From contig NC_013407.1 of the NCBI RefSeq assembly GCF_000024625.1, positions 1,488,001-1,552,000 on the forward strand: a DNA stretch of 64,000 bases, given 5' to 3'. Of the stretch, positions 2,391 to 27,762 are shown in pieces (position 1 is the first letter of the stretch; each line of letters starts with the position of its first letter). This stretch comes from Methanocaldococcus vulcanius M7 (GTDB lineage: Archaea > AGJL01 > Methanococci > Methanococcales > Methanocaldococcaceae). The position numbers and the translations under genes are program-made. Below the pieces are notes generated by a model. It saw only the letters and a program-made list of their open reading frames with translations, searched no databases and was not told the DNA's origin.

Positions 2391-3698
2391 ATGGTAAAAG
2401 TTGTTAGAAATGTTGTCTGCCCATTCTGTGGGACTTTGTGTGATGATTTAGAAATATTAGTTGAAGACAACCACATAGTTGGAACAAGACACGCGTGTAG
2501 GATTGGAAACGCTAAATTTATGCACTTTGAAGGAGCAGTTAGATACACAGAACCATTGATGAGGGAAAATAAAAAAGATAATTTTAAAAAAGTTGACTAT
2601 GAGACAGCAATAGAAGAGACAGCACGACTATTAACTGAGTCATCCCTTCCTTTGATATATGGATGGAGTGCTACTGAATGCCACGCTCAGATGTATGGGG
2701 TTGAGTTGGCTGAATTAGTTGGAGCAGTTATAGATAACACTGCGAGTGTTTGACACGGACCTTCAGTTATGGCTTTGCAGGATGTAGGATACCCTGTCTG
2801 TACCTTAGGAGAGGTTAAAAATAGAGCTGATGTTGTTATCTTTTGGGGTTCTAATCCAATGCATGCCCACCCAAGGCATATGAGTAGGTATTCAATATTT
2901 GCGAGAGGATTTTTCAGAGAGAGGGGTAGAGAGGATAGGACTTTGATTGTTGTTGATCCAAGGGAAACAGATACTGCAAAGTTGGCTGATATTCACTTAC
3001 AAGTTGAGCCACATAAGGATTATGAGTTGGTTAGTGCAATGAGGGCTGTATTAAAGGGCTTTGAATTGCAAGTGGATAAAGTTGCTGGCGTTCCAGCTGA
3101 CTTAATATATGAGGCAGTAGAAGTTTGTAAAAATGCTCAGTTTGGAGAGTTGTTCTTCGCTATGGGAGTAACGATGACAAGAGGTAAGCATAGGAATATT
3201 GATAACGCTATTCAGTTGGTTATTGATTTAAACGCATACACAAAATTCGGACTAATGCCAATGAGAGGACACTACAACGTAAATGGATTCAACCAAGTTC
3301 TAACGTGGGTTACTGGTTATCCGTTTGGAGTTGATTTTTCAAGAGGGTATCCAAGATACAACCCCGGAGAGACAACGGCTAATGATCTCTTGCAGAGAGG
3401 AGAAACTGATATGATGTTGAACATCGCTTCAGACCCTGGAGCACACTTCCCACAAAAGGCAGTTAAGCATATGGCAAAGATTCCACTGGTTTGTATTGAT
3501 CCTCATGAAACACCAACAACTCAGTTAGCAAATATAATTATCCCTCCGGCAATTGCTGGGGTTGAAGTTCCGGGAACTGCTTATAGAATGGATGGTGTCC
3601 CAATCCCCTTGAAAAAGGTTATAGATCCTCCAGAAGGTGTTTTACCAGATAGTGAGATATTGAAAATGCTTATCAAGAAAGTTAAAGAAATGTTATAA
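2391..3698 (+). CDS. fwdB: Tungsten formylmethanofuran dehydrogenase subunit B, selenoprotein (Sec121)
   Basis: Catalytic subunit for reduction of CO2 to the formyl level in methanogenesis. The reading frame appears split by TGA at 2751-2753, but both halves are in the same frame and join as [14 protein letters not shown]. The FwdB/FmdB family has a metal-binding Cys or Sec at this place, so the TGA encodes selenocysteine. The N-terminus has the [10 protein letters not shown] [4Fe-4S] motif; further on are [18 protein letters not shown] and [14 protein letters not shown], typical of bis-pterin molybdenum/tungsten enzymes. The total is 435 aa including Sec, usual for the family. GGGGTGA precedes the ATG. 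A SECIS hairpin lies 129 nt after the stop codon. The other fwd subunit genes are not in the window. Confidence 0.95.
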
Positions 3699-3731
3699 AC
3701 ATATTAAAGAATATAGATGTTCGAGATAATA

Positions 3732-3744
3732 AAGTATATATATG
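3732..3744 (+). promoter_or_regulatory. Possible TATA box before a GC-rich structured region
   Basis: AAGTATATATATG lies just after fwdB and about 28-38 nt before the start of the hairpin at 3772, the distance expected for an archaeal TATA box driving a separate small RNA. It could equally be chance AT-rich sequence in the fwdB 3' UTR. Confidence 0.3.
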
Positions 3745-3771
3745 AGAGAAACAGATTAGATTATTGGGGTG

Positions 3772-3823
3772 GGCGTGCAACGCTAACCATCTTTGGGTAT
3801 CCTACATCCTGCGTTGACACGTC
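3772..3823 (+). ncRNA. Strong GC-rich hairpin 5' of the fwdB SECIS, function unknown
   Basis: 3772-3783 pairs with 3811-3823 over 12 bp, with a single bulged A at 3817 and one G-U pair, enclosing a 27-nt loop. In this AT-rich genome such a GC-rich stem outside a gene usually means selected RNA structure. It ends 4-5 nt before the SECIS. It may be part of an extended fwdB 3' UTR or a separate small RNA. It matches neither a C/D-box nor a clear H/ACA layout, and I do not recognise the family. Confidence 0.5.
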
Positions 3824-3827
3824 GTTG

Positions 3828-3861
3828 TGTTGGAGGGGAACCCGTAAGGGACCCTCCAACA
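3828..3861 (+). promoter_or_regulatory. Archaeal SECIS element of fwdB
   Basis: GTTGGAGGG (3829-3837) pairs with CCCTCCAAC (3852-3860), extended by U3828-A3861. Then come the GAA (3838-3840) versus A (3851) internal loop, a CCC/GGG upper stem and a GTAA loop. The core matches the vhuU SECIS, although the lower stem sequence differs completely. This shows independent covariation of the stem. Confidence 0.95.
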
Positions 3862-3978
3862 TCTTATTATTTTGGATATTTTAATCGATTTATTTTTATA
3901 TCCCGATTTTTAAATTTAAAATTCAAAACTCAAAAAATAACCAATACCACGAATACAAGGCATTTAAAGGATATAACT

Positions 3979-4770
3979 CTATGAAGAGAGTTCTTTTTCA
4001 ATTTCCTTTAGGTAATTATCTATTTTTCCGTTTATTTCATCAACTATCTCAATAGCTCTATCTAAGCTTTCTTCATCACATTTATTTAGAAGTTTTTTAA
4101 TATCATCTATTCCTTGATATATTTCTTTTATTAATTTTATGACATCAACAACTTTCACTCCCCCACTTTCCATTAGCTCCTTGATTTTCTCTGACATTGT
4201 ATCTATTTTTTCAGATATGGTATCTACTTCATCAGATAGCTTATCTAATTTTGAAGAGTAGTTCTCAGTGTTTGCTATTATTTTATCTAATTTTTCCATT
4301 AGCTCCATTTTTGATGAGTCATATATTTTTTTAATTTTATCAGATATTTGATCTAATGCCTCATCAGATAGATCTACCTTTTTTAGATTTTCTAATTTAG
4401 TTAAAACCTCTTTTAACATGTTTTCTATTCTTTCATATCCATTATTTTTCACAATTTCCAATATTTTATCTAATTTTTCATTTATCTCTTTTATTTCATC
4501 CCCATTTTTTATTCTTTCTTCGCTATCTGAATTTCTTATATCTTCCTCATTATTGTTTAAATCTAAATCCGTATCGTTTTTATTATCATTTATTTTACTT
4601 TCTTCTGTGTTTTTTTCTTCATTATCGTTATCCTTATTATCAGTTTTGGGAAGATTCGAAGTTTTTAACTTATTGTATAAACTACTTGCAAGTTTTTCAA
4701 GATTTTTAGCTCTATCTATTAGATCATCCTTCTGAATTTGGTTTTCAGTGGTCTCATTACTTTGCTCCAT
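3979..4770 (-). CDS. Coiled-coil protein of unknown function (third gene of a trio)
   Basis: About 263 aa, not recognised. Residues 1-85 are hydrophilic and low in complexity (rich in N, D, E and K) and probably disordered. The rest is nearly continuous helix with heptad spacing, including a repeated SEKIDTMSEKIKEL-like stretch near residues 175-190. There are no signal peptide, membrane segment or catalytic motifs. GGGTGG precedes the ATG at 4770; the GTG a little upstream lies inside that site. It is last in a minus-strand run of three coiled-coil genes facing away from the chemotaxis transducer. A scaffold or adaptor role is only inference. Confidence 0.7.
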   Translation of the reverse strand: MEQSNETTENQIQKDDLIDRAKNLEKLASSLYNKLKTSNLPKTDNKDNDNEEKNTEESKINDNKNDTDLDLNNNEEDIRNSDSEERIKNGDEIKEINEKLDKILEIVKNNGYERIENMLKEVLTKLENLKKVDLSDEALDQISDKIKKIYDSSKMELMEKLDKIIANTENYSSKLDKLSDEVDTISEKIDTMSEKIKELMESGGVKVVDVIKLIKEIYQGIDDIKKLLNKCDEESLDRAIEIVDEINGKIDNYLKEIEKELSS

Positions 4771-4812
4771 AAAAACCACCCGAATTCTAACATTAGTTAA
4801 AAGTATTAAATA

Positions 4813-5337
4813 TTAAAACAGTTTATTAAAATTTATGAAAACTCCAACAAATGACATTAAAATAACTACATATACTAATATCTCAATAATATTTAACTCT
4901 CGTTCAATAAACTCGTGAGATTTGTTGAACGCACTTATTAAGGATGTTAGATAAGTTAATCTTTTTTTAAGGATATTGGTTTTTTTCTCAATATTTTTAT
5001 GTCGTTCTTCAACTTTATTTGAAAATGTTGTGGCGAGTTGCCTTACCTCTAAAAGTTCCACAGATACTTCATTAATCGACTCATTTGAGTTCTCCAATAG
5101 TATTTTTATATGATCTAAATGCTCTAAATATTTTGTTAAAATCTTTTTAAGTTCATATAACTCTATAATAACCATACTTATCTTTTCATTAGAGGCCTCT
5201 AACCCATATTGAATCTCTGCAATATAATTATTCATCTCCGAGATCAGGGCTTCTACTTCATCAATAGCAACTTCTGAGTTTATTTTTGATAAATTTTTTA
5301 AATTAAATATACCCCTCCCCATATCTTGATTTGACAT
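4813..5337 (-). CDS. Tail-anchored coiled-coil protein (second gene of a trio)
   Basis: About 174 aa. Residues 20-145 are long amphipathic helices, with stretches such as LEASNEKISMVIIELYELKKIL. A single hydrophobic segment close to the C-terminus (IIEILVYVVILMSFVGVFINF) is followed by only four residues (NKLF), so the protein is probably tail-anchored with a cytoplasmic coiled coil. The ATG at 5337 is preceded by a GTGGGGG tract with good spacing; an upstream ATG at 5355 lies before that site. Gaps to its neighbours are about 40-50 nt, consistent with one operon. It is the only membrane-linked member of the trio. I do not recognise the family. Confidence 0.7.
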   Translation of the reverse strand: MSNQDMGRGIFNLKNLSKINSEVAIDEVEALISEMNNYIAEIQYGLEASNEKISMVIIELYELKKILTKYLEHLDHIKILLENSNESINEVSVELLEVRQLATTFSNKVEERHKNIEKKTNILKKRLTYLTSLISAFNKSHEFIERELNIIEILVYVVILMSFVGVFINFNKLF

Positions 5338-5388
5338 TTTCAAACCCCCACACATTTTATTATTTTTATTTTTGAATATTTATTTTAT

Positions 5389-5964
5389 TTAATGATTACA
5401 TTCGTTTAGTGTGTTATCTAAATCTAAGAGTAAATCTTTTAAACGTTCTTCCAATGCAAGATTTTTCTTTGAGATCTCTGATAACATTTTTTTGTTAGAT
5501 TCTATTATTGCAGACGCCTTTTCAAATTCTAACATCACTCGATTTGACGCATCAGAATTAACTGTTTTTAATTTTGCTATCGTTTCATCTAATTTTGATA
5601 TTGAAGTAGAATGTTTTTCAATTTCTAAGTTCAAGTTTTTTGTTATTTTTTTAATATTTTCAATAACGTGTGTCAGATTTTCTAAATTTTCAACAAACTT
5701 TTCAAGAATATCAGGATTTAAGCTTCCCCCATTTTTATATCTTTCCAATATTTGATTGTATTTATCTTCAACAATATCCAGTGTTTTTTCTACGTTGTCT
5801 AAGACAGGATTCAATTGACTTATTAAATTAGCCATATCCTCATTTCCTTTTCTAAAATTTATAGCACTGTTTAATAGGTAGTTTATTGACTGATCAAGTT
5901 TTAAAGCAATCTCTAAATCCAAATTTTTACAATCATTTTTATTTTTATCTATGTTATCGTTCAT
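5389..5964 (-). CDS. Soluble coiled-coil protein of unknown function (first gene of a trio)
   Basis: About 191 aa, helical throughout, with heptad-like leucine and isoleucine spacing (NLTHVIENIKKITKNLNLEI) and no membrane segment. The start is the ATG at 5964 after a strong GGGGGAGGTG site; an in-frame GTG three codons earlier is inside the site. It is the promoter-proximal gene of the trio and is divergent from the transducer gene at 6348. The long polar helices resemble tether or spacer proteins more than enzymes. No family is recognised. Confidence 0.7.
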   Translation of the reverse strand: MNDNIDKNKNDCKNLDLEIALKLDQSINYLLNSAINFRKGNEDMANLISQLNPVLDNVEKTLDIVEDKYNQILERYKNGGSLNPDILEKFVENLENLTHVIENIKKITKNLNLEIEKHSTSISKLDETIAKLKTVNSDASNRVMLEFEKASAIIESNKKMLSEISKKNLALEERLKDLLLDLDNTLNECNH

Positions 5965-6347
5965 CGTTAGCACCTCCCCCCTCAGATATTCAATATCGCT
6001 GTCAATTATTTTTATACTAATTTTATTATTAATTATTATTAATTATTTATATATTTACTAATTAATTTTAATAGCTAATTCCTAATCATATCACACAATA
6101 CATAAGTTAAATATCCAAGTTATTTATTGGATTATCGATTTTCGTATTATCTTTTTAAATTTTTGTAAAATTGAACCCAAAAAATAAAAGATATATATCT
6201 CCTCGTTAAATACTATTTCAGTGGGAATGATTCAACTTAACATTATAATAAATATTTTAATTAATCTCTACCAAATCAAATATTATGACAATAAAAACTA
6301 TAAAAATACTACTATATATTTATGTCGCATGCAAGGGGGGAGGGAAT
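5965..6347. promoter_or_regulatory. Divergent promoter region between the coiled-coil trio and the transducer
   Basis: About 380 nt of very AT-rich DNA without a gene. It contains a perfect AGATATATATCT palindrome at 6189-6200 and several TATA-like runs, including CTATATATTTATG about 30 nt before the transducer's ribosome-binding site. Toward the minus strand, TATATAAATAATTAA lies near 6040-6055. Both transcription units probably start here; no operator can be assigned. Confidence 0.4.
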
Positions 6348-7808
6348 ATGAATTTGACTGTAAAAGCAAAGATCTTAATGATAATTTTCACATATGTAAT
6401 TTTAATAATATTATTCTCGATTTTAATTCTACATTCATCTAACTTAATGGAAATACTAATCGCTTTTAATATCTTAGCAATAATAACAGCAGGGATCTTT
6501 ATCTTCTTTATGAAGAAAACAGTATTTGATCAACTTAGTGAACTTGAAAGAGTTACTAAGGAATTTGCCGAAGGAAAAACAAACATAAAGAGAAATCCAA
6601 ACATAAAGTTTAACAAGAATGATGAGATAGGGAAGGTATATTATAACATAAAGTATGTATACTTCAACTTTAAAGAAAAAGTGGATGAAATCCAAAAAAG
6701 CAGAAAAGAATTAAGAAAACTTATAAAAGATATTGAAAAAGTAATGAATGCAATTATAAACGGGGATCTTACTGCAAGGATGGATGAAAGCGGAGAAAGA
6801 AACAGGGTTCAAAAGATCATCAATAGGGCGTTAGATAAGTTATCGATGATGGTATGTGAGTTAACAAACACCGTTGTTAAGTTAGAAGATGAGATCAAAA
6901 GAGCTAACGAAGAAGTCGAGAAATTGAGAGAGACATCGGATCAGATCGCTGATGCAGCACAGCAAGTTGCGGTAGCAGCAACAGATCAATCCAATAAACT
7001 GCAAGATCTAACGCAGGAGTTAGAATATACTGCAAAACTTTCTGAAGAAACTTTAAAGGCCTCTGAAGAGGGAGTTGTTGCAATAAATGAAGTAGAAGAA
7101 AAATCGAATGAAGGAGTGAAAAATGTAGAAAATGCTATTGAAACAATGCAAAGAATATCAAACGTTATTGATGAATTAGGAAAGGCACTCGAAGAATTAG
7201 GAAGAAAAAGCCAAAAAATCAATGAAATTACTGCTTTAATTAAAGATATTGCTGAGCAAACAGGACTTTTGGCTTTAAATGCTTCTATTGAAGCGGCAAG
7301 AGCTGGAGAGGCAGGAAGGGGTTTTGCTGTTGTTGCAAGTGAGATCAAGAGTTTAGCCGAAGAGATCGGAAAATCAGTTGAAGATATAAATAGAACAGTT
7401 GAAGAAATAAGAACTGCCATTGAAAAAACAATTGATTTAGGATTAACTGGAAAAAATGAAGTTGATAGAGGGGTTATTGCAATAGATGAAGTTAATAACG
7501 CATTTCTAAAAATAAAGGAGGCGGTAGATAGAACCAAGGAGGTTATAGATAACATTAAAAATGCTGCAAAAACCTCAGTAGAGAATGTAGAAAAGTCATT
7601 AAGAGATGTTCAAGATATTGCTTCAATCTCTGAAGAGTTTGCTGCAACTGCTGAAGAGTTAACTGCCTCAACAGAAGAACTTAACAGTGCAATTTCAGCA
7701 TTTAGAGATATAATTCTCGACTTGGAAGAAACTGCTAAAATTGCTTCAGAGTTATCAAGAAGGTTCAAAGTTGACAAGATCTGCAAAGTAATAAACAACA
7801 AAACATAA
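6348..7808 (+). CDS. Methyl-accepting chemotaxis protein without an extracytoplasmic sensor domain
   Basis: Transducer of 486 aa. Two transmembrane helices (about residues 9-28 and 35-55) are joined by about six residues, so no ligand-binding ectodomain exists. A HAMP-like region follows (about 55-108), then a linker and a second HAMP-like repeat (about 130-190), then the long signalling hairpin. Its tip carries [20 protein letters not shown] followed by GRGFAVV (about 303-330), the universal CheA/CheW contact region. The ATG at 6348 has a strong GGGGGGAGGG site; an upstream in-frame ATG lacks one. Input must come from membrane, cytoplasm or a partner protein. CheF and CheY genes follow; cheA, cheW, cheB, cheR and cheD are not in the window. 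Confidence 0.93.
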
Positions 7809-7988: not shown

Positions 7989-9029
7989 ATGGCAAGAAAA
8001 CCGAAAGAAGTTGCAGTATTTAACGGAAAAGGGATTTTGTTAAACCAATACACTATGAAAAATCCAGTTTTAAAATGGGAAAAATTAGATATTATACTGT
8101 ATGAAGATAAAATAAATTTTATATTTCCAAACAAAAAAGTAGAAGTAGAGCTCCAACATGTTGAAGATGTGGGGGCTGAACTTCCAAGGAGGGCAATAGA
8201 GGTTGCAAAATCGTCGTTGGAGGATATAACCTATCACTCCTCTATAACATTCAGACCTCCAGAGTCAGACAAAACAATGGTTGGATTTGCCCCTGAAACA
8301 TCCATATATGGGAGAAAACCAATAGAAAACTTTCTTAGAAAAGTATTTTATGTTCTTTTAAATAAAAAAGAGATAAAAATCCAATATGGAGCAATAAAAG
8401 GAGGTAGTATTGATCCAAATGTTAAGTGGGAGGATGGGTATTTAATATTCGTTCAGAGAAAAAGTGCCCTTTCAAGTGGGGAGATCTTGGCAGTAGCAGT
8501 TTTAGAAAATGGAAAACCGAAAATATATAACTTATTTTCCAATATAGAATCAATACGATTAAAAACCAAGTTAATAAATGAAAATGAAGAAGCAGAAGTT
8601 TTAGAAATAAAACAAATAAAATCAAACGAGACAATAACATCATACCTATACATTGAAAAAAGAGAGCGACTCTTTGTTTTAAGATACATAGCCACACTTA
8701 CAAAATACAAAAATACAGTAAAAGACCTACTTCCAAAATCAGAAGACGAATTAACCTCAGAATTCGCAGCTGAAAGCTGGTCTGGAGAAAAAATAAAAAG
8801 TGAGGTAGAAAAATTAAGCCCTGAAGAGCAAGAAATACTGATGGCATTGTATACGGGAATATCTCCCTTAGAGTTACCAAATATGTTAAATATGGACGTT
8901 GATGAAGTTGAAAGAATCCTTGATGAGTTAATAGATAAAGGGCTATTAAATTTAGTTAGAATCAGAAAAGAAGTAGAATTGTCAGAAAAAGGTAGAGCAG
9001 TTACTAACTATATTGTAACCAATTTCTAA
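7989..9029 (+). CDS. cheF: Taxis protein CheF (DUF439 family)
   Basis: About 346 aa. Recognised by overall resemblance to the archaea-specific CheF/DUF439 family, which binds phosphorylated CheY and links the Che system to the archaellum motor. The N-terminal part is beta-rich with no membrane segment. The C-terminal 80 residues form a helical winged-helix-like region (SPEEQEILMALYTGISPLEL ... VDEVERILDELIDKGLL ... VELSEKGRAV). GGGGGGAGGA precedes the ATG. Its place between transducer and cheY agrees with the function. Archaellum genes themselves are not in the window. Confidence 0.8.
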   Translation: MARKPKEVAVFNGKGILLNQYTMKNPVLKWEKLDIILYEDKINFIFPNKKVEVELQHVEDVGAELPRRAIEVAKSSLEDITYHSSITFRPPESDKTMVGFAPETSIYGRKPIENFLRKVFYVLLNKKEIKIQYGAIKGGSIDPNVKWEDGYLIFVQRKSALSSGEILAVAVLENGKPKIYNLFSNIESIRLKTKLINENEEAEVLEIKQIKSNETITSYLYIEKRERLFVLRYIATLTKYKNTVKDLLPKSEDELTSEFAAESWSGEKIKSEVEKLSPEEQEILMALYTGISPLELPNMLNMDVDEVERILDELIDKGLLNLVRIRKEVELSEKGRAVTNYIVTNF

Positions 9030-9187: not shown

Positions 9188-9562
9188 ATGGCAAATATTG
9201 TAAAAACATTGGTAGTGGATGACTCTGCATTTATGAGAAACATTTTGAAGAAAATATTAACTCCAACTGGAAAGTTCGTTGTAGTGGGAGAGGCATCAAA
9301 TGGAAAAGAGGCGATTGAAAAAGCGAAAGAATTACAACCAGATTTAATAACCATGGACATTGTAATGCCGGAAATGGATGGGATCACTGCAACAAGAGAA
9401 ATAAAAAAGATACTACCAAACGTTAAGATAGTTATGTGCACATCAATAGATCAGGAGAAAAAGGTTATTGAAGCAATAGAGGCAGGAGCTGATGGATATA
9501 TTGTAAAACCATTCCAAGCACCTAAGGTTCTTGAAGAGTTAAACAAACTATTCCCTGACTAA
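9188..9562 (+). CDS. cheY: Chemotaxis response regulator CheY
   Basis: A stand-alone receiver domain of 124 aa. The acidic pocket D11/D12 (VVDDSAFMR), phospho-acceptor D57 (ITMDIVMPEMDG), T85 and K107 (VKPF) are all present, so it should be phosphorylated normally by CheA. There is no output domain. In archaea CheY-P acts through CheF on the archaellum, and cheF is the gene just upstream. GAGGTGGTAGGAA precedes the ATG, and a TATA-like AATAATATATATC at about 9121-9133 suggests its own promoter. Confidence 0.95.
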   Translation: MANIVKTLVVDDSAFMRNILKKILTPTGKFVVVGEASNGKEAIEKAKELQPDLITMDIVMPEMDGITATREIKKILPNVKIVMCTSIDQEKKVIEAIEAGADGYIVKPFQAPKVLEELNKLFPD

Positions 9563-9797
9563 ATAATTTTCTATTTATTTCTATTTATAAAAATGATAAA
9601 TAATGATTGAAATTATAGTCCGATGAAAATTGATATATTAGCTTAGATTTGAAGATTTAAAATGATTGTAGAATATATAAAAAATTATTAAGATAACGTG
9701 GGGGTTTATTAATCAATATTTAGGAATGGCAATATACGAATAGAGACATATAACAAGCAATTATTAGAAATTAAAATCAGATCAATGCGTGAGAACT

Positions 9798-10544
9798 ATG
9801 AAATACGGATGTGTAGAAATATCTCCAAAATCTTGGGAGGTTATTGTAAAAAACATTATTGAAACAACATTGGAGGATAACATGCAATCTGATAAAGTTA
9901 TAGGACATTTTGACTTGGAGGGGTTAAGTAAAATAGAAAACGTGGGGAAATATGCATCTGAAAAGGCAATGAAGTTCATTTCAGATATGACAGGATATTC
10001 TGCAGAGTTAAAGGTCTTTAATATTAGATTAATTACTCCAAAAGAAATAAAAGATGAATATGGGGAGGATAAAAAAGTATTCACAAAAATTGACTTTACT
10101 GGAGATATTAATGGAACGGGTGTTTTAATATTTTCTGAAGATTCAGCAGTAAAGTTGTCAAAGGCCATGCTTTCGGGTATGGGAATGGAATCAGACACCG
10201 ATGAAATGGATGATATGAAGATCTCTGCTATTAATGAAATTTGCAATATATTAATATCTGCATATGTGGATTCATTTGCTAATTTTATGAATACATCATT
10301 AACGATGTCCCCACCTACATTCATTGTAGGATCTGGAAAAGAGCTATTAGAGAAGATCTTTAATGAAAATAAGATAGATGACGACGACATAATAATGGCA
10401 TTCAGATCTACCCTACATATATGTGAAGTAGGAACTGGCTTTGATGTATTAATCGTCCTACCGCACGAATCAGTAAAAATACTATTTGATGCAATAAGCA
10501 AGGGGGAGGTTCAAGACAAACTAAGTGTAAAATATGAAAATTAA
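9798..10544 (+). CDS. CheC-like CheY-P phosphatase (paralogue 1)
   Basis: About 248 aa. The C-terminal half carries the CheC/CheX/FliY phosphatase signature ExxN-x22-P (EICNILISAY ... SPPTF). The corresponding N-terminal helix (SKIENVGKYASEKAMKFI) has lost the ExxN asparagine, so only one of the two sites seen in classical CheC seems active. An N-terminal extension of about 30 residues precedes the domain. The start is uncertain: ATG at 9798 is preceded by a weak GTGAG, and GTG at 9789 is an alternative. Together with the next gene it would lower the CheY-P level. Confidence 0.78.
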   Translation: MKYGCVEISPKSWEVIVKNIIETTLEDNMQSDKVIGHFDLEGLSKIENVGKYASEKAMKFISDMTGYSAELKVFNIRLITPKEIKDEYGEDKKVFTKIDFTGDINGTGVLIFSEDSAVKLSKAMLSGMGMESDTDEMDDMKISAINEICNILISAYVDSFANFMNTSLTMSPPTFIVGSGKELLEKIFNENKIDDDDIIMAFRSTLHICEVGTGFDVLIVLPHESVKILFDAISKGEVQDKLSVKYEN

Positions 10545-10640
10545 TAGTAAATATCCACAATAAAGATATGAGTGTAATAATTCGCTAAAATTTTACAATT
10601 TAACTTTTATCTTAAATGAAAAGTTGTTAATGTGGTAAAT

Positions 10641-11249
10641 ATGAGCTTAATAAAGCCAATAAATAAATTAATTGAACTTGGAAAAGAAGCTGCCGAAAAT
10701 ATGGCAAGATCTTTTATGGAACTAACCGGGGAAAATGTAGAAGTTTATTTTTTAGGTTTAAGGTTTGCTCTTGTTGAATTTATCCCAGAACAGTTCGGAG
10801 ATGAACCATACAAAGCCGTTAGAATTGATTTTAATGGAGTATTAAGTGGAAAAAGTTTAATCTTACTTCCAGAAAAGGACTCTGTAAAATTGGAAAAACT
10901 TATGCTACTTGACATACTTTGGGACAGTATGGTTAGTAAATCAGAACTCCCCGACTATGACGAGATGGAAAGTGCATTAATAGGAGAAGTTGGCAACATC
11001 GTAATCTCTGCTTTCTTAAATGTTTTTGCCAATGAACTAAATGGAGTTATCGATATAACACCCCCAACATTTATAAAAGAACTTGGTTTCACAATTGTGG
11101 AGTCCCTCATTACAGAAATAGCCGAGAAAACAGACGTTGTTATGCTATTTGATACAAAAGTTGAGATCGTTGGAAGATTTCCAATAAAATGTTATTTAAT
11201 AATCGTAATCGACCCTGACTCAATAAAGAAACTTGATCAAATTGTTTAA
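10641..11249 (+). CDS. CheC-like CheY-P phosphatase (paralogue 2)
   Basis: About 202 aa, related to the preceding protein. It has EVGN followed by 22 residues and P (EVGNIVISAF ... TPPTF), a single phosphatase motif in the C-terminal half. The N-terminal helix (GKEAAENMARSFMEL) lacks the motif. The two genes look like a tandem duplication that diverged. The start at ATG 10641 follows a weak GTGGT. It is the last gene of the chemotaxis group; a T-rich stretch follows and could terminate transcription. Confidence 0.75.
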   Translation: MSLIKPINKLIELGKEAAENMARSFMELTGENVEVYFLGLRFALVEFIPEQFGDEPYKAVRIDFNGVLSGKSLILLPEKDSVKLEKLMLLDILWDSMVSKSELPDYDEMESALIGEVGNIVISAFLNVFANELNGVIDITPPTFIKELGFTIVESLITEIAEKTDVVMLFDTKVEIVGRFPIKCYLIIVIDPDSIKKLDQIV

Positions 11250-18088: not shown

Positions 18089-19711
18089 TTAGTTTTCTTC
18101 TATAAGGGGTTTATATCCCACAGTTGTTGGATACTTCCAATAATCAGATTTATTTGTAAAGAGACCTATAATTGAATATGTTCCGTTGTATACTTTATCA
18201 TAAGCCCCAACACCATAATAAATAACTCCATTGAAAGTTTTTGGTTTTTCTTCAGTATAAGTAATTGGTTGAATGTTTTCTGCTCCAACTGTTGCAGTAA
18301 TGTTATTTACATCCTTTAAAAATATCCAGTCAACTGTAATGTTTGTATTAGATGTTTTATTTTCTGGAGGTAGGGCGTTTATAGATATTGGATAAGTCCC
18401 ATCGAAACTGCCTGTTTCTCTTTTACTATATTCTAAATTCAATGTTGAATCATATATGTTGTATTCAATATATGGGTGGTTTGAAATGTTATTTAAAATT
18501 AGATCATAAATATAAGTTTTATTAATATAATCGAATGTATTGTCTATACCATAGGAGTCGTCTCCCATCACTATCTCAAAATCACCATCTCCATAGTATG
18601 CCCATCCATATCCTCCAGTATCATCTAATTTGTTAAACAGCCCTGCAGATTCCGAGTTATTCTCTGGAGTGTAGCTGAAATTTGCTCTAAACATTAATTC
18701 ATAGCCCTCTCCATAAGTGTCTTTTGAAAATACACTCGAACCTGCTCCTGCCACTACTGTCAACTTACTATTATTTATTAAGATCTCTCCAGATTCATTC
18801 CATTTATCTGGATCAAAGTAATCAAAATTATCAAATAGGATAAAGGTATTTTCTGGATCTTCTCTATCTACGGGGGTTGTTGAGTTATATAGAAGATAGA
18901 TATAATCTTCACTAACATTAAGCAATTCTTTGTTATTTACCTTAACCCATATTATAGAGACGTGATTATTTCCTTCTCTCCACGTTTGAACCCAGTAAGG
19001 TAATACAACATTCCATCTCCCTGTAGAGGAATTTCGTCCGATTATTCTTATTTCTGTTGGAGAATTTTCATTATACATCCTATTGTAATTAAAATTACTA
19101 TCATTTAATATTATGCAAAATGTATGGTTTTTGTCATCATTTGGAAAATTATTTAATATTATTTTTCTTCCATATTCCCATTTATAGTAAAATTTATTTA
19201 AATAAACATAAGGATCTGGAATTCTCGAGAGCTTTACTTCTTTATCTATTTGGATATTTTTTAACCCAACGATCTCTCCGTTATTTAATCTTTCTGTATA
19301 CCTCAATTCGATATTTCCAATAACTCTTATTTTTAAGGGATCGTCGGTAGGTTCTATATCAAAGGATCCAACATCAAATGTAATGTTCGAAGAGTTTCCA
19401 ACTATACATTTTAAAGATTTATTGGTTTCATTTTTAATAAAGGAGGTTATATAATTTACTGCAACTTTTGCATTTGGGAAAAACTTTCTACTTTTCATTA
19501 TTTTATAACTCGCATTAACAAAAGCATCTTCTACTATTTTATTAATATTCCTGTCTATTGTGTTCTTCACGTTTTTTTCATATATACTAACTTCTTTTAT
19601 CTTTATTTCATCCTCTACCGCTTTGGTTTGATAATTTATTGTAGAGTAAAACACTGCTGAGACAACAAACATTAACATAACCAAAATTATTGCATTTTGA
19701 GAGAAATACAT
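18089..19711 (-). CDS. Surface protein with N-terminal membrane anchor and DUF2341-like domain (pilin locus)
   Basis: About 540 aa. One hydrophobic segment near the N-terminus (NAIILVMLMFVVSAVFYST, about residues 6-24) is followed by an extracytoplasmic domain with many N-x-S/T sequons. The middle and C-terminal parts resemble the DUF2341/concanavalin-like module of archaeal surface proteins (YDSTTP-like YNSTTPVDREDPENTFILFD, FDYFDPDKW, ITVDWIFLKD). A related module is in the protein at 20334-22199. The canonical Q at pilin position +1 is missing, so it may be a signal-anchored partner rather than a pilin. GAGGAGAAACT precedes the ATG. It is last in the minus-strand run. Confidence 0.75.
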   Translation of the reverse strand: MYFSQNAIILVMLMFVVSAVFYSTINYQTKAVEDEIKIKEVSIYEKNVKNTIDRNINKIVEDAFVNASYKIMKSRKFFPNAKVAVNYITSFIKNETNKSLKCIVGNSSNITFDVGSFDIEPTDDPLKIRVIGNIELRYTERLNNGEIVGLKNIQIDKEVKLSRIPDPYVYLNKFYYKWEYGRKIILNNFPNDDKNHTFCIILNDSNFNYNRMYNENSPTEIRIIGRNSSTGRWNVVLPYWVQTWREGNNHVSIIWVKVNNKELLNVSEDYIYLLYNSTTPVDREDPENTFILFDNFDYFDPDKWNESGEILINNSKLTVVAGAGSSVFSKDTYGEGYELMFRANFSYTPENNSESAGLFNKLDDTGGYGWAYYGDGDFEIVMGDDSYGIDNTFDYINKTYIYDLILNNISNHPYIEYNIYDSTLNLEYSKRETGSFDGTYPISINALPPENKTSNTNITVDWIFLKDVNNITATVGAENIQPITYTEEKPKTFNGVIYYGVGAYDKVYNGTYSIIGLFTNKSDYWKYPTTVGYKPLIEEN

Positions 19712-19803
19712 AGTTTCTCCTCTAATTTTTATTTTTAATTCAGTTTATATTATATTTCATTCATATTTTAGTATACTTAATCTTTTATTATTAATTAATC
19801 AAC

Positions 19804-20337
19804 CTATGACGAAGGAAGGTATAACTTCACCTTAGATGAGGTAATATTTCTTGAAAGATAAACAGGCATGTGAATCTTGTAATTTATATAAGTTGGACAA
19901 TTGTAAGCATCAGTATAGTCGAGAAATCGATCTTTGGATATGTTTATTGAGTTTTCATCCCCATAAATCACATACCATCCTTCACTCCTATTTAGTGTTA
20001 GTATGGCCAAAACATAAAGATTTGAGGAGATATTCCCACCTGATTTATTTATCAGAAGATTATTGTCAATATATAAAAGATAATGATGAAAAGGAAGCTT
20101 ACTCTCAATTAATTTCTTTGCTTCATCTTTTTTTCCAAAATAGTAGAGAAGAACCGCATCCTGTAATGTTCCATCATTTGAAAGTTCTTCCATTGCTGAG
20201 ATTCCCTTATCAAAGATATAATCCTCTTTTACAATATTTACATAATTATTATTATGTTCAGTAATTGAAACAGTCCAATAAGCCATTCCTACGAGTAATA
20301 TTGCCGTTCCTATTGCTAAATCTATACTATTAATCAT
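19804..20337 (-). CDS. Short pilin-like membrane-anchored protein
   Basis: About 177 aa. The N-terminus [21 protein letters not shown] is a very short polar head followed by a hydrophobic helix, like class III/type IV pilin-type proteins although lacking the Q+1. A polar extracytoplasmic domain of about 150 residues follows, with few sequons. Its ATG overlaps the stop of the upstream gene by 4 nt (ATGA), indicating translational coupling. I recognise it only as a minor pilin candidate by context. Confidence 0.65.
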
Positions 20338-22199
20338 GATTTCACCATTATGGTAATATTCCTTGGAGACAATGTCAAATAATAATAAAATGCATCGTTT
20401 TCCATATTTATTTCAAAATTCACAGGTAGTGGGGAGCTTAATATTCTAATCACGTTAACTCCTGTTTTCAAGTTAGGGGTTATATCTATGGAACGAAACA
20501 CGGAGTTTAATGGCTTCTCATAAATATATCCATTAACAGTAAATATAACATCAGAAGCCATTAATTTAACCTTTGGTTCTGGAAAAGCATAAGGTCTAAC
20601 AAATACCCAATCAATGCTTATATTTCCATTCTTCTCATCATCATTCGTTGGAATATAACCGTATGTTGTTGAGTCGTCAAACCTTCTTGCGTAAAATGCA
20701 ATCGGCAACTCTCCTGTATATATATTTGAGTATATTATTTTATGAATTTCTTCTCCATCGTGATCTATTATAAAGTTAACTGATGTTTTTCCATTCCTCT
20801 CTATCTCATAAGTGTTCCATGTGTTATACAAGCTTAAATCCTGCAATACTATATAACTATCATGATCTTCATCAGATACTGAGGACTCTGCCCTTAAATA
20901 TTCTCCCCCCCAGTGATAATTTGTTATAACCTCTCTGTTATAGTCAGTGCCATCTGGATTTAATTCGTAAAATCCAGCCCACTCATCATATTTTTTATGA
21001 AAGTTAGCGTGAAATCTTATGGCGGTGTGATCATTAAATATTTGGTAAGTTATGATATGAGCATCATCCTTCCCATTATTGTATTGGTTGTAGTCCAAAC
21101 TTAAATATACAAATGGCATTCCATTTGCATAAGTGTCATCTAAAAACAATGGGTTATTAAAGTTGTATTTCCATTTAGTAGTGTCTATCTTTTTTTCAGA
21201 AAAGTCATCAAAGAACATAAATGTTTTTTCACCATTTGCTGTGGTTTTAGCATTTGGATTTCCATAGAGCATATATATTATCTTATGCTCATTCGGGGCT
21301 AAATTTACTTTAACCCATGCAACGGTATGGTGTGTATTTATTGTGTTTGGCTCTATCCAATAGTTCAACTCATTTCCGTTTTCATCAATAAATCTCACAT
21401 CTCCACAATCCACTCTCATCTGATTATTTGCAATATACTCCTCTGAATCAAACACCACTTTAACATCATAGTTATCTAAACTCTGATTTAGTTGATTAAT
21501 TATAACAATAGGGGAAGCGAACTTCCAATCTGCCCACTGTGCAAAATTATTGTTTTGGGAAGTCATAACTCTTGCAGAAGCGGATGTTATTTCGCTGTTT
21601 ACTTTAAAGTAAATGTGATCACCCTCACATCCATAAAGATTAAAATTACTTCCAAAACCCATACCTGTAATTTTTGGAATATATGCGTTTTCTGTAAAGT
21701 AAAGGATATTATCTCCTGATATTGAAAGAGAAGATGTTGTTGGAGGATTATTATACACGTTAGAGTAAATTGTGAATGTTTTAGTTCCAAATGTAAAGTT
21801 AAGTTCTTGAAGACCTGCGTTTTTTAAGTCGTTTGAATAGTCGCTTAATTCATCATCATATATATTTGGATTTATAATAAATTGAACACTACCGTTGAAT
21901 TTGGAGAAGTTATTTAGAGGATCAAATGTTTTTTCTTGAATATTTAGATCATTTAAAAAATCTCTATAATATGAATCTACATAATACTTTCCAGGAAAGG
22001 AACTACTCTTTATAAAAAAATCCTTTAATAAGATTGCTTTATGGTACTGCTCCGCATTTTTTTTCTCCTCGACTCCTGTAAGCAAATTATAACTATAAAC
22101 TGCATAGCCAATATAAAAAATACTTAAAAATATAAATGCGATGATTATTGCTTCATAAGTAAAAACATAACCTCTCTTAGATGTTAGCTTTTTTATCAT
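20334..22199 (-). CDS. Large DUF2341-domain surface protein with pilin-type N-terminus
   Basis: About 621 aa from ATG 22199, which has AAAGGTG at good spacing; the longer frame start at 22229 has none. The N-terminus [20 protein letters not shown] has the shape of a class III prepilin signal (basic head, Gly, E in the hydrophobic helix) with Y in place of Q at +1. The middle has a DUF2341-like module ([46 protein letters not shown]) and a concanavalin-like continuation ([18 protein letters not shown]). It overlaps the archaeosortase gene by 23 nt, so expression is coupled. Adhesion or sugar binding is a family-level guess. Confidence 0.78.
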
Positions 22200-22677
22200 A
22201 CATTGCACCTTTTGAATTTTTAATAACATTTAATTTTATTAATATTTTTATCCACATCAAATTTAAAATTAACGCCACAGGAAAGATGATGAAACTTACT
22301 GCATCATGTATTAATTTGTAATTAAGCATGTATGAATATTTTGCGATTACTGCCATCCTGATTATGTTTGACATATTTATAATAAAGAGTCCAAACAGGG
22401 CATATATTACTTTATATTTAATAGGAACATCCGGTGTTCCAAAGATGTATCCCAAAAATAACGCCATTTCCAGAGAACATGTGCACGGTGCACTAACACT
22501 TATTACTGTGCTTTTTATTACTATCGTGTTGGCATAATAATAAGAATCAGTCAAATAAGCTAAAATTAAAGCTAAAATGAGGGATAAATGATCTTCAATC
22601 CCCTTTAAAACAGCATAAAATATTAAAAAATATATTAAAAATCTCAGTAGGTAAACAGTGTTTTTATTTTTATCCAT
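22177..22677 (-). CDS. Archaeosortase/exosortase family transpeptidase
   Basis: Integral membrane protein of 166 aa with about five transmembrane helices. The triad of the family is visible: Cys67 in [15 protein letters not shown], Arg107 in [10 protein letters not shown] and His124 in [10 protein letters not shown]. Archaeosortases cut C-terminal tripartite sorting signals and are thought to join the protein to a membrane anchor. Two genes upstream is a protein with a matching tail (VPIPNY, hydrophobic helix, RGLK), so the pair resembles the archaeosortase E/PIP-CTERM type; the subtype name is from memory. It overlaps the pilin gene by 8 nt and the DUF2341 gene by 23 nt. Confidence 0.85.
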
Positions 22678-22888
22678 TTAACGCCCTCTTTGCTTTGTAG
22701 ATATTATCCAGTGCTTTATTTTTTGCAGTGATCGTGGCATTTTTAGATGTAATCTCTGCAGTGTTAGATCCATTTACAACTGATTTCAAATAATAAAATC
22801 CAACTGCTGAAGCTACCACAACCACAACTGCAAGTAGCAATGCCAATTCCAACGATACCTGAGCCCTATTTGAAAGTATTTTCCTCAT
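22670..22888 (-). CDS. Class III (type IV pilin-like) prepilin, short
   Basis: 72 aa. The N-terminus [22 protein letters not shown] matches the archaeal class III signal: basic head, cleavage before Q+1, S+3, E+5, hydrophobic helix. EppA-type peptidase should process it. The mature pilin would be about 64 residues, with a Lys-rich C-terminal helix ([13 protein letters not shown]), so it is a good major-pilin candidate. The ATG overlaps the stop of the PKD gene by 4 nt and is preceded by GGGGGTTGAA. Confidence 0.88.
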
Positions 22889-25800
22889 TTCAACCCCCTT
22901 AAAATATAGAAGATACAGAATACTGTCGAAACAATAACAAGTATGTTAATGTAGTTTGGTATTGGAACACTATGCCATCTTACATTTCCAACGTTTACTA
23001 TCTTGCTTCGTGAATCGGAGAGTCCATTGTTATCTACAACAGTTAATATTACAGGATACGCACCTTCTTCTTTATACTTGTGTATGATAATAGGACTACT
23101 TGTAGTGTTTGTTGTTCCATCTCCAAAATCCCACGTGTAATTTACGATCTTTCCATCTGGATCGTGAGACAGCGATGCGTTAAACTCTACAACAGTTCCA
23201 TTTACCTTATAAGTAAAGTCAGCAATTGGAGGATATTTAGGATTTGGATAAATAACCACAATCTTTGAAACGCTGTCTGTTAAGTTATTATCACTCTTAA
23301 CAGTTAAAGTTACAAGATATGCACCTTCTTCTTTATACGTATGTATTGGATTTTGCTCTGTTGAATTTGTTCCATCTCCAAAATCCCAATACCAAGACAC
23401 GATCTTTCCAGGGTTCACTACCGAAAGATCGGTGAAATAAACTGTATTGTTGTTTTCAGTATAGTTAAAATCAGCAATAATTCCTGTAAGAGTTATATAT
23501 TTAGAGATGGAAGAACTTAAATTATATGGATCAAAGACCGTTAGTTTTACCAAATAATTTCCTGGTTTGGTGTATTTATGACTTACAGTCGGGTTTGTTG
23601 TAATCAGTTCTGATCCATCTCCAAAATTCCAAACATACTTAGAAATATTCCCTTCAGGATCATACGATAATGAAACGAACTCTACATTTTCATTTATCTT
23701 CGGTGTTGTTGGGTAGTAAGTAAAGTTCGCAACAGGTGGCCTATCTATCACACTAAAATTAACTACAACGGATCCAACTCCCCCCAATCCATCCCAAACC
23801 GTTAAATTTGCAGTATAATTTCCAACATCAAATTGATGATATACTACTTTCAACTCATTTGACGTATAGTTCCATACCTCATTTCCTTTAGAATCATAGA
23901 CAGTTAAGTTAAATCCGTAGATTTTTGCCATTGGAGAGTTAGGAGGGATTGTATAATATCCTCCATAAACATAATCTGGGATATTCCTATTTGCATCCGG
24001 GTCATAACTGTTTAATGGATTAAAGAATACTGTATCTTTATAACTTGCAGGATTTGGATAAATATAAAGATTTGCTACTGGATTTTTATTATCTACAACG
24101 GTTATTACAGTTGAACGATATGTTATAAAATCATCTCCTAAAATTTTGGAATCGGTTCTTGATTCATCATAAACAGTTAGACTGACCCTGTACCTTCCTT
24201 CGTTAGCGTAGCTATGTGTTAAATTGAACGAATCTATTGGATATTTTGAAATAGATGTACCATCGCCATAATTAATGTAATACTTATAACAGTAATACTT
24301 GACATAATAATACCATGGCCACAATATCCATACCTTCTCGGATTTATAATAATAAATGTCATCATATAGATTACATTTATTTTTTAAACTATCTGGAACA
24401 TCAACCGATATATAAATAGGTTGATGGGTTTTAACTGTTGTTGGATATACATAAAATCCTGGACTCCCTGAATAGGAGGGTCCAACACCGATAATTGGTG
24501 AAACTCCAATAATTACATTTCCATTTTTATCTATTATAAATACATAAGCGTTATAGTAACCTTCCTTTGAATATGCGTGTGTTGGATTATTTTCAAATGA
24601 ATAGCTACCATCTCCAAAACTCCACATTACAAATATTGGAGTTCCATTATAGTCATAAGAAAATGACACACTCTCTCCTACATCGGGATCTAAATTACTT
24701 ACATGGACAGGAATTTCTATATGAGTCCCATCTCTAATTTTTAAATTATAAGTAGGGTTTGGATTGTCCGAATAGTATGAAATATTTACGACATGATTTA
24801 TTTTATCATAATAAACATTAAATGTTGTTTTATCATGAGTTGATGATGGCAAAAAGTTATATTTTGTATTTCCTACATCTCCAACTATCAAAAAATCGTA
24901 ATTTATAATGTAATTTATTTCTCCACCAATATTAACCCATCCTGACCAAACTACTGGAAACATAAATGGAAATTTATATACATGTGTGGCTGAATCCGAA
25001 TATGTAGAGACGAATGAAGTGTCTCCAAAGTCAAATCTAATCTCACCTGCAGGACTTCCAGAAGTTTCTGTAAATGTTATTGTGTCATTCACTTTGTATG
25101 CTAATATGTCAGGATTTTCGTTATTTACATATCCTGAACTATTCTCAACATTTAAGTGGTCATAGACAACGTATAAATACCCTCCTCTCGGTCTTTTAAC
25201 CTCTATTCCTTCACTTAAATAACCAACCATCACATCTCCAGAATCATCAACAACTAAGACCCTCGGAGAGTAGAATCCGTAAGTAGTGTAAGTGTGTTCT
25301 GGAGATCTTTCAAAAGAAAAGGTTCCGTCTCCAAAACTCCACATACAAAATATTATATTTTTATTAGTTGAAAAATTAAATCTAACTGTATCTCCTTCTA
25401 CAATTTCATCTTTGCTAACATTTACAGTTATTGGTGTAGTATCTACCCTCAAACCGTAAAAATTAACGTTGATTGGTGTTGCAGAGTAGTATTTTATTAT
25501 GACAGTATTACTGCTACTGTTATATGAAACATCCCAGTTTGTTTTTGAATTCGAAGAACTACCATTAAATATATACGTAGTTCCAGAAACATTTCCTACA
25601 ATAATCCAGTTATAAGTTAATGACTTTGGATAGAACGTATTATTTAGATAACCACACCATGCTACTGGATAAGGGAAAGGGAAATCATAGGTGTGAGTTA
25701 TTGAGACGGGGGCGTTATAATCTGTTTCAGTTAGGTCTCCAAAATCCCATTTTATATGCCCATTGGTTAAGATTTCATTTGAAAGTGTATCAAACCCTAA

Positions 25801-25935
25801 CGCAGTAAATTTAAATGTAAAATTCCCTTCTTGTGTTATATTCATCGTGTTTGGGTGGATGTAATAGATCTCACCACTGATCTTACACATAAATCCTATT
25901 AAAATAAGGAAGAACAATGTCCTAATAAGTTTCAT
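22885..25935 (-). CDS. Secreted PKD-repeat protein with PIP-type C-terminal sorting signal
   Basis: 1016 aa. A signal peptide ([19 protein letters not shown]) is followed by about eight or nine PKD-like beta domains, recognised by repeated W/F-x-FGDG or YGDG and HTY/HKY motifs ([56 protein letters not shown]). The C-terminus is VPIPNY (PIP at 991-993), a hydrophobic helix and RGLK, a tripartite sorting tail. This suggests removal of the tail and anchoring at the cell surface by the archaeosortase encoded in the same operon. GGTGAGGATTT precedes the ATG. Likely a long stalk-like adhesin or S-layer-associated protein. Confidence 0.9.
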
Positions 25936-26029
25936 AAATCCTCACCATTTCGAGTATTAGTATTGCAGATTAATATGTATAAATTGCTTTTAATTATTTG
26001 TATTTGTTATTAATTACTTGATTTATTAT

Positions 26030-26476
26030 TTATTTTATATTTACCAGTGTGTTTTTCGATAATGTAATGTTATTTTTACCAACATTTGCAATCAACTGAA
26101 CTTTATTACCTACATCAACACTTGTGTTTACAACATCCCTTCCTTCTATTCTAACTCCATCCTTCTCTGGGTAGAAGATCACATACGTCTCTCGGGAAAC
26201 ATTTATCAATTTAGTGGAAGCCCTTATAGTATAAGATATGTCTCCAACGGGCTTTAAAGTTAGCAAGAGAGTTTCATTCTCTGAATAGGATAGCATTGCA
26301 TAGTTTTCAAAAGTATCTACAACAGCGTAGAGTTTATTTGCAATTATTGCATTGGTTGAGTCGTTTGTAAATGTTAACTCACTTTCATATAGGAATAAAG
26401 AAACAATCATCAAGAACATGAAAGCCAGTATAAAATCAACAGAGATCTGTCCTTTTTTTCTTTTGATGAGATACAT
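26030..26476 (-). CDS. Class III pilin-like protein with Asp at +5
   Basis: About 148 aa from ATG 26476, preceded by CGGTG at normal spacing. The head YLIKRKKG|QISVDFILAFMFLMIVS fits a class III prepilin signal except that Asp replaces the usual Glu at +5. The mature part is about 138 residues, beta-rich, with several NxS/T sequons. It is probably a minor pilin and stands first in the minus-strand run, about 95 nt before the PKD gene. Confidence 0.8.
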   Translation of the reverse strand: MYLIKRKKGQISVDFILAFMFLMIVSLFLYESELTFTNDSTNAIIANKLYAVVDTFENYAMLSYSENETLLLTLKPVGDISYTIRASTKLINVSRETYVIFYPEKDGVRIEGRDVVNTSVDVGNKVQLIANVGKNNITLSKNTLVNIK

Positions 26477-26675
26477 TTCTGCACACCGTTGATTAGTTAT
26501 TTCCTCATTTAGCAATTTAATTATCTCTATAAACTTTTATCTCTCATTTTATATATATTTTTATATATTTATATTCTATACATCAATGCACTTAATATAA
26601 ATATAGTGTAATATACAATTTTACTTAATTTTAATTCTTAGTTAAAAATTATTGGAGATTTTTATATTCTAACCT

Positions 26676-26742
26676 TTAAGACATATGTGCTATTTCTTTG
26701 TGATTTGTGGATAGTATATAATTTATGAGTGTTAAGACATAT
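26676..26742. repeat. Pair of TTAAGACATAT direct repeats in the divergent pilin promoter region
   Basis: TTAAGACATAT occurs at 26676-26686 and 26732-26742 in the 330-nt spacer (26477-26805) between divergent pilin-like genes. The spacer otherwise holds TATA-like sequences, including GCATATATATTGG just before the gene at 26806. The repeats could be regulator sites, but two copies are thin evidence. Confidence 0.35.
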
Positions 26743-26805
26743 AATTATTTTGTATAGTTTAAAAATCTTTAAACCATAAAATCGTGCATATATATTGGTG
26801 GAAAT

Positions 26806-27657
26806 ATGAAAAAAGCCCAGTTGTCTTTGGAATTAATATTACTGATCTTTGGAATAATCATTTCGGGAATAGTAATTTCCTATTATTTAATAGATGTTTC
26901 CAATAAACAGCAAGATCTTGGAGATACCACACAACATACAAAACAAATAACTTACAATTTATTCGGATCAATAAATGGAACTAACAAAACCACATCTCCG
27001 CCCTCCTCAATAACAAACAGTAGCAGTGAAAATACAAATGAATCATCAACATCCAACGAAACCGAAGGTTATGCAAAAATAATTTTTGTTGGCAAAGAAC
27101 AGCCATCAGCAAAATATATCACCTATGACGGAATTGGATATACTCCAAATCTAAACGTAATAATTAGTGGAAGAAGAACTGTTGTAATAAGACCAAAAGG
27201 AAGTCCTAATGAGGAATATATACTCTACCCAATAAATGGAACGCTCACTTATTCAAACATTGAATTTTGGGCTCAGGGAAATCATATATTGAATATTTAT
27301 AACGTAAAGGAGGTTCCAAGCGATCTATATATTGACTTTATTATAAAAGGAGCTCCTATTCCTCAAATTATACTATTAAAAGATGTAAAAATTGCTGGAG
27401 GAGTTAGTGTAGATTTTGAGATATATGGTGGAGGAAATAAGACAGATGCAGAGGTTGATATAGTTAACACAACAATAAATAGTTTAGATTTAAACAATAT
27501 AAGAAGAACTTCTGGAACTATATACGTAAACATTGAGGGGAGTAATATATCAAACCTGAATGAAGATTACAGGGGAAGAAATACCATATATTTAACTATT
27601 TCGAATAGTTGGATTGACGGAAAATATATTTCACACTATACTAAAAAGATTGAATAA
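26806..27657 (+). CDS. Class III pilin-like protein with repetitive beta C-terminal part
   Basis: 283 aa. [21 protein letters not shown] is a canonical class III prepilin signal. A Ser/Thr/Asn-rich linker (about residues 65-95) follows. The rest is beta-strand-rich (VDFIIKGAPIPQIILLKDV ... ISNLNEDYRGRNTIYLTISN) and resembles the C-terminal part of the next gene. The length, far above that of a simple pilin, suggests a tip or minor pilin. GGTGGAAAT precedes the ATG. Confidence 0.8.
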   Translation: MKKAQLSLELILLIFGIIISGIVISYYLIDVSNKQQDLGDTTQHTKQITYNLFGSINGTNKTTSPPSSITNSSSENTNESSTSNETEGYAKIIFVGKEQPSAKYITYDGIGYTPNLNVIISGRRTVVIRPKGSPNEEYILYPINGTLTYSNIEFWAQGNHILNIYNVKEVPSDLYIDFIIKGAPIPQIILLKDVKIAGGVSVDFEIYGGGNKTDAEVDIVNTTINSLDLNNIRRTSGTIYVNIEGSNISNLNEDYRGRNTIYLTISNSWIDGKYISHYTKKIE

Positions 27658-27762
27658 TTCCACTTTTTATAAATTATCTCGGATTTCGTGGAAAAAGGTA
27701 TATATATTGGTTAGGATATATATAACAATATGGGTAATGTTTAACAAAGGGGGTGATAGGTT

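Follow-up and report, generated by a model that had tools for sequence, protein, structure and literature searches.

A gene of a three-gene operon in a Methanocaldococcus-type genome, designated here P1, is shown by co-occurrence and synteny to be a conserved che-linked gene of Methanococcales, and it appears to encode an undescribed, order-wide archaeal chemotaxis component. The operon is located in a window of 64,000 nucleotides (G000:C1:1488001-1552000) of a 1.76 Mb genome present in three contigs (G000), and it would join two different things, namely the chemotaxis accessory P1 and a pair of coiled-coil proteins, P3 and P2, whose distribution follows other rules than that of P1.

Layout of the locus and properties of the encoded proteins

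P3, P2 and P1 are consecutive open reading frames on the minus strand (window 3979-5964), separated by gaps of 51 bp and 42 bp and transcribed in this order, with the soluble P3 first, the tail-anchored P2 second and P1 with its acidic stretch last. P1, P2 and P3 are evidently real genes, because homologues are present in other genomes. The features of the locus are as follows:

3979..4770, minus strand: P1, 263 aa; acidic and Asn-rich disordered stretch at about residues 39-81, between a short N-terminal helix and a conserved C-terminal coiled coil
4813..5337, minus strand: P2, 174 aa; coiled coil carrying a C-terminal membrane anchor (residues 150-168, approximately); second family copy
5389..5964, minus strand: P3, leading gene of the operon; encodes a soluble coiled coil of 191 aa and has a good Shine-Dalgarno sequence (GGAGGTG)
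5965..6347, no strand: intergenic region from which P3 and the MCP gene diverge; arrangement conserved in G012, G006 and G002
6348..7808, plus strand: sensor-less MCP with a pair of N-terminal TM helices; its ORF is open from 6285
7989..9029, plus strand: CheF (PF04283), adaptor to the archaellum
9188..9562, plus strand: CheY (response regulator)
9789..10544, plus strand: CheX/CheC-like protein
10632..11249, plus strand: CheC

The divergently transcribed MCP of 486 aa has its best start at 6348, preceded by GGGGGGAGGG, and contains two hydrophobic segments inside residues 1-55, followed by a weak HAMP match and then a strong MCPsignal match, while an extracellular domain is absent. The divergence of P3 from the MCP gene is repeated in three relatives, G012, G006 and G002, with gaps of 155, 142 and 82 bp. 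The operon divergent from a sensor-less transducer, as noted in the preliminary description, is indeed found at this locus. Models of sigma-70 promoters are not applicable to archaea. No Rfam family was found in window 3650-6400. Downstream of the operon, between a formylmethanofuran dehydrogenase-like gene and P1, lies a G+C-rich stem-loop (window 3755-3885), whose folding beats 200 of 200 shuffles (z -3.55) and which has neither an Rfam match nor a second copy within the window; it is possibly a small RNA or a convergent terminator structure.

Heptad character was assessed as periodicity of hydrophobic residues against shuffles, and all three proteins exceed the latter, with z values of 9.7 for P1 (residues 89-263), 5.6 for P2 (residues 1-150) and 9.5 for P3, as compared to -0.5 to 0.7 for the controls CheY, CheC and CheF. 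The earlier account of three consecutive genes composed mostly of heptad helices thus holds with exact coordinates, and so does their division into a soluble, a tail-anchored and a disordered acidic protein. P2 has a single hydrophobic segment, at its C-terminus (KD of 2.77 at residue 150), with 6 residues remaining beyond it, and this segment is kept in 14/14 members of its family; no hydrophobic TM segment was found in P1 or P3. Residues 1-90 of P1 show no periodicity and are 27% acidic and 19% Asn, with residues 39-81 predicted to be unstructured. Within the P1 family, the N-terminal helix and the C-terminal helical region are conserved and the acidic disordered linker is variable. Structure models were weak, with a pLDDT of 59.9 for P1 (four sequences) and 70.0 for P2 (single sequence), and fold searches returned no match at E<=0.001.

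Searches of Pfam, NCBIfam, PHROGs and PDB with P1, P2 and P3 gave coiled-coil-like matches only. Reversed sequences served as the background control for such weak similarities, and reversed P1, P2 and P3 produced similar match lists against Pfam, none over cut-off. The only Pfam match over cut-off is that of P1 to EIF_2_alpha (PF07541, 23.0 vs 22.8 bits), which covers the coiled-coil part only, is found in 5/19 P1 family members and is most likely due to chance; reversed P1 matches other families, below their cut-offs. P1 scored 15.4 bits against FlaC (PF05377, cut-off 27.8), and the MCPsignal cut-off of 34.6 (PF00015) was not reached by P2 (9.8 bits) or P3 (12.9 bits). Iterative searches drift into MCPs, but homology among P1, P2, P3 and MCPs was rejected, since reversed sequences score equally, at about 20 bits. 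True members of the P1, P2 and P3 families score clearly over this background; the weakest P1 members, at 22-25 bits with a single query sequence, were confirmed by gene position and family profile. On the outcome of these searches none of the three proteins is in a known family, in agreement with the preliminary description, and the weak database matches correspond to the reversed-sequence background. No paper naming the P1, P2 or P3 genes was found in the literature, the locus tags used being guesses.

P1 as a conserved che-linked gene of Methanococcales

The comparison set comprised 36 Methanococcales genomes, 21 with and 15 without che genes, with che status assigned from MCP, full-length CheF, CheW/CheA (within Methanocaldococcus) and che clusters read directly. 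A census with a 19-sequence profile, in which a chance match in a flavoprotein-like ORF of G015 was ignored, revealed P1 in 19/21 che-positive and 0/15 che-negative genomes (Fisher p 2e-8, ancestry ignored). The two che-positive genomes lacking P1 are G004, a draft, and G011, which is complete. Outside Methanococcales, only scattered matches are found, in 11 further archaea, and their scores of 19-24 bits are at noise level. One narrow pattern, scanned against a public genome collection, returned three P1 loci.

This co-occurrence is accompanied by a conserved gene order. P1 lies inside the che cluster in all 14 che-positive Methanococcaceae. Within the reach of the fetched contigs, the genes there follow each other as Rpp21-like, P1, DapB, TrmY-like, CheW, CheB, CheA, CheD and a short MCP, the names being assigned by reading the sequence and not by a scan. 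The locus of Methanocaldococcus G002 runs P3, P1, CheW, CheB, CheA and CheD, with P1 immediately preceding cheW. DapB and TrmY are absent from this locus, and therefore the association of P1 with che genes is independent of those housekeeping genes. P1 is found apart from the che cluster in G006 and G003. In G000 itself the che genes are split, as compared to the single cluster of most Methanococcaceae: CheW, CheB, CheA and CheD, together with another MCP, are encoded at L193 3997-11298 (G000:C1, about 247-254 kb), about 0.5 Mb on the circular map from the CheF/CheY/CheC block of the window.

A precedent is provided by CheF (DUF439, PF04283), the adaptor between CheY and ArlCDE, since both it and P1 are archaeal che genes found via co-occurrence and synteny with the che cluster (PMC2666748). 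However, the two are unrelated in sequence, CheF being a globular family spread across Euryarchaeota, whereas P1 has both a coiled-coil part and a disordered one and is found here in Methanococcales only. As P1-carrying Methanococcus species are genetically tractable, the role of P1 is directly testable.

Distribution and linkage of P2 and P3

The preliminary description offered the working idea that the tail-anchored protein and its soluble partners form an array-associated or spacer complex, an idea at odds with orthologues in che-less genomes. For P1, which tracks che genes, no such orthologue was found and the chemotaxis assignment stands; P2 and P3, however, are kept side by side in G001 and G008, both without MCP, CheA and CheW, and P2 is also kept in the che-less G009 and G013. 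Co-occurrence of the trio with the transducer, raised there as a question, holds in part: P3 and the core MCP gene diverge from each other in G000, G012, G006 and G002, but the full trio operon is found only in G000 and G012.

P3 is present in 8 Methanocaldococcus genomes, with no convincing score elsewhere. It adjoins a P2 gene in five genomes (G000, G012, G003, G001 and G008), a linkage repeated at three kinds of locus; in G011 it is solitary between unrelated genes, and it is absent from the archaellated G009 and G013. P2 was identified in 11 Methanocaldococcus genomes; it usually occupies a conserved locus other than that of the window operon, beside Sua5-like and/or DUF2117-like genes. 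With archaellum status scored by FlaD/E gene matches, P2 is present in 10/10 FlaD/E-positive Methanocaldococcus genomes, including the four che-less ones named above, and absent in 3/4 without FlaD/E matches (G005, G007 and G010; Fisher p 0.011, ancestry ignored), a correlation that rests on few independent cases, the archaellum-less genomes including two drafts and representing perhaps one lineage. The 99% complete G010 lacks both P2 and FlaD/E, while G004 (86% complete) has P2 and no FlaD/E match. P2 and P3 were not found in archaellated Methanococcaceae, and therefore neither is a universal motility part. Neither P2 nor P3 gave a well-resolved tree; the P2 of the window, a second copy, groups with the che-locus P2 of G012 with a support of 86/96 and long branches, which is moderate.

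In G004, one P2 copy on contig 67 (L183 5600-7000) is interrupted by a TnpB-like coding sequence, with a second TnpB-like ORF nearby on the opposite strand and an intact P2 copy on another contig; the interrupted copy may be a population variant that arose by insertion of a mobile element. A short CheF-like protein of about 255 aa, without the C-terminal part, is encoded in G000 (L186 7546-8304) and also at L184, L185, L187 and L188. It is kept in Methanocaldococcus with and without chemotaxis, and the fact that several che-less archaellated genomes have retained it points to some role other than CheY relay. M. jannaschii is likewise reported to lack che genes and to keep a truncated CheF/DUF439 (PMC2666748).

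Possible roles of the operon

The reading favoured here, if tentatively, is that P2 and P3 may constitute a membrane-tethered helical scaffold near archaella, with P1 coupling the CheA/CheW side to it. P1 would be a Methanococcales-specific chemotaxis accessory that probably acts on the CheW/CheA side, because one genome has it directly linked to cheW-cheB-cheA-cheD and 14 others have it in the same cluster. P3 and P2 are presumably a coiled-coil pair, because they are repeatedly adjacent, and the membrane anchor of this pair would be the predicted C-terminal helix of P2. Since P2 and P3 are kept in archaellated genomes with or without che genes, their basic job would lie with the archaellum-bearing membrane or pole and not with signalling alone. 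The conserved tail anchor of P2, the P3-P2 linkage and the persistence with archaella together suggest a scaffold at the archaellated membrane, where P2 and P3 could build a helical scaffold or spacer. In the same way, the N-terminal helix, disordered acidic linker and C-terminal helical region of P1 suggest a tether, in which the short helix on its flexible linker would hold the chemosensory complex to the P2/P3 scaffold. In G000 and G012 a duplicated P2 is grouped with P3 and P1, facing the core receptor gene, and a single operon in this position would coordinate the supply of scaffold and array.

Of the other explanations, it is possible, if on the whole unlikely, that P2 and P3 are general coiled coils of the envelope or of cell organisation (at the membrane surface or polar) with no dedicated motility role, so that P1 alone would belong to chemotaxis and the operon would be incidental. 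The usual neighbours of P2 are indeed housekeeping genes, P3 of G011 stands alone and the archaellum correlation of P2 is based on few genomes; however, the joint lack of P2 and FlaD/E in the nearly complete G010 and the four genomes in which P3 and the core MCP gene diverge speak against this. The same divergence is what speaks for the idea of the preliminary description that the tail-anchored P2 and its partners form the sensory input unit of the sensor-less transducer. This is nevertheless rather improbable, since P2 and P3 are retained in G001 and G008 in the absence of any MCP, CheA or CheW, P2 lies near the core MCP only in G000 and G012, and the short core MCP of Methanococcaceae occurs without P2 or P3.

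A more specific form of the favoured scaffold, in which P2 and P3 would be structural parts of a membrane or polar-cap archaellum anchor and P1 would dock chemosensory arrays to this anchor, is regarded as distinctly doubtful. The polar cap is a proteinaceous structure occurring with archaella in cryo-tomography, its associated complexes being reported as unidentified (PMC5517150), and the same holds for archaellum-anchoring proteins at the membrane or polar cap (PMC5517150, PMC8978795). The literature on the polar cap and ArlX motivates such a reading of P2 and P3 without proving it. Any component of the polar cap should be present in genomes that are archaellated but che-less; however, the polar cap has been described in Pyrococcus, Thermococcus and Halobacterium, whereas P2 and P3 are found only in Methanocaldococcus. 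P2 and P3 are candidates for membrane or polar-cap anchoring of Methanocaldococcus archaella.

ArlC (FlaC) and ArlX (FlaX) resemble the present proteins as helical coiled coils linked to archaella, and ArlX, like the predicted P2, is membrane-anchored. P2 could on this ground be a membrane-anchored relative or functional stand-in of ArlC that tethers the ring of ArlCDE to the membrane, the role proposed for crenarchaeotal ArlX. ArlCDE lack the TM domain that ArlX possesses (PMC8978795), P2 tracks archaella, the few off-family matches of the P2 profile in whole genomes include FlaC of G009, G013 and G023 (28.7, 28.5 and 20.7 bits), and FlaC scores under this profile are 4-32 bits forward vs 5-15 reversed. 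Yet this relationship is improbable to a high degree: the similarity is weak and comes without the FlaC signature (YEVVSNQINPFIG..KITATS), which is not common to P2, the reversed alignment of P2 itself reaches a nearly equal profile score, genuine FlaC is present as a separate gene in P2-bearing genomes, and P2 is absent from archaellated Methanococcaceae. P1 as FlaC was ruled out by a negative profile comparison, and that of P3 was negative as well.

Most improbable of all is a derivation of P2 and P3 from chemoreceptor cytoplasmic domains, as remnants or otherwise. The MCP cytoplasmic domain (PF00015) shares long heptad helices with P1, P2 and P3, weak MCPsignal matches are found in 10/14 P2 members (best 4e-5) and iterative searches slide into MCPs. 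However, forward MCP sequences score no higher than reversed ones, at about 20 bits, reversed P1 and P3 match MCPsignal too, and the receptor tip motif is missing, and hence the similarity of P2 and P3 to this domain equals the reversed-sequence background.

Elsewhere in the window, a series of secreted or pilin-like proteins is encoded at 18089-29373, along with a large PKD-like repeat surface protein (22885-25935). A small membrane protein with several passes, at 22177-22677, looks archaeosortase-like as read from sequence only.
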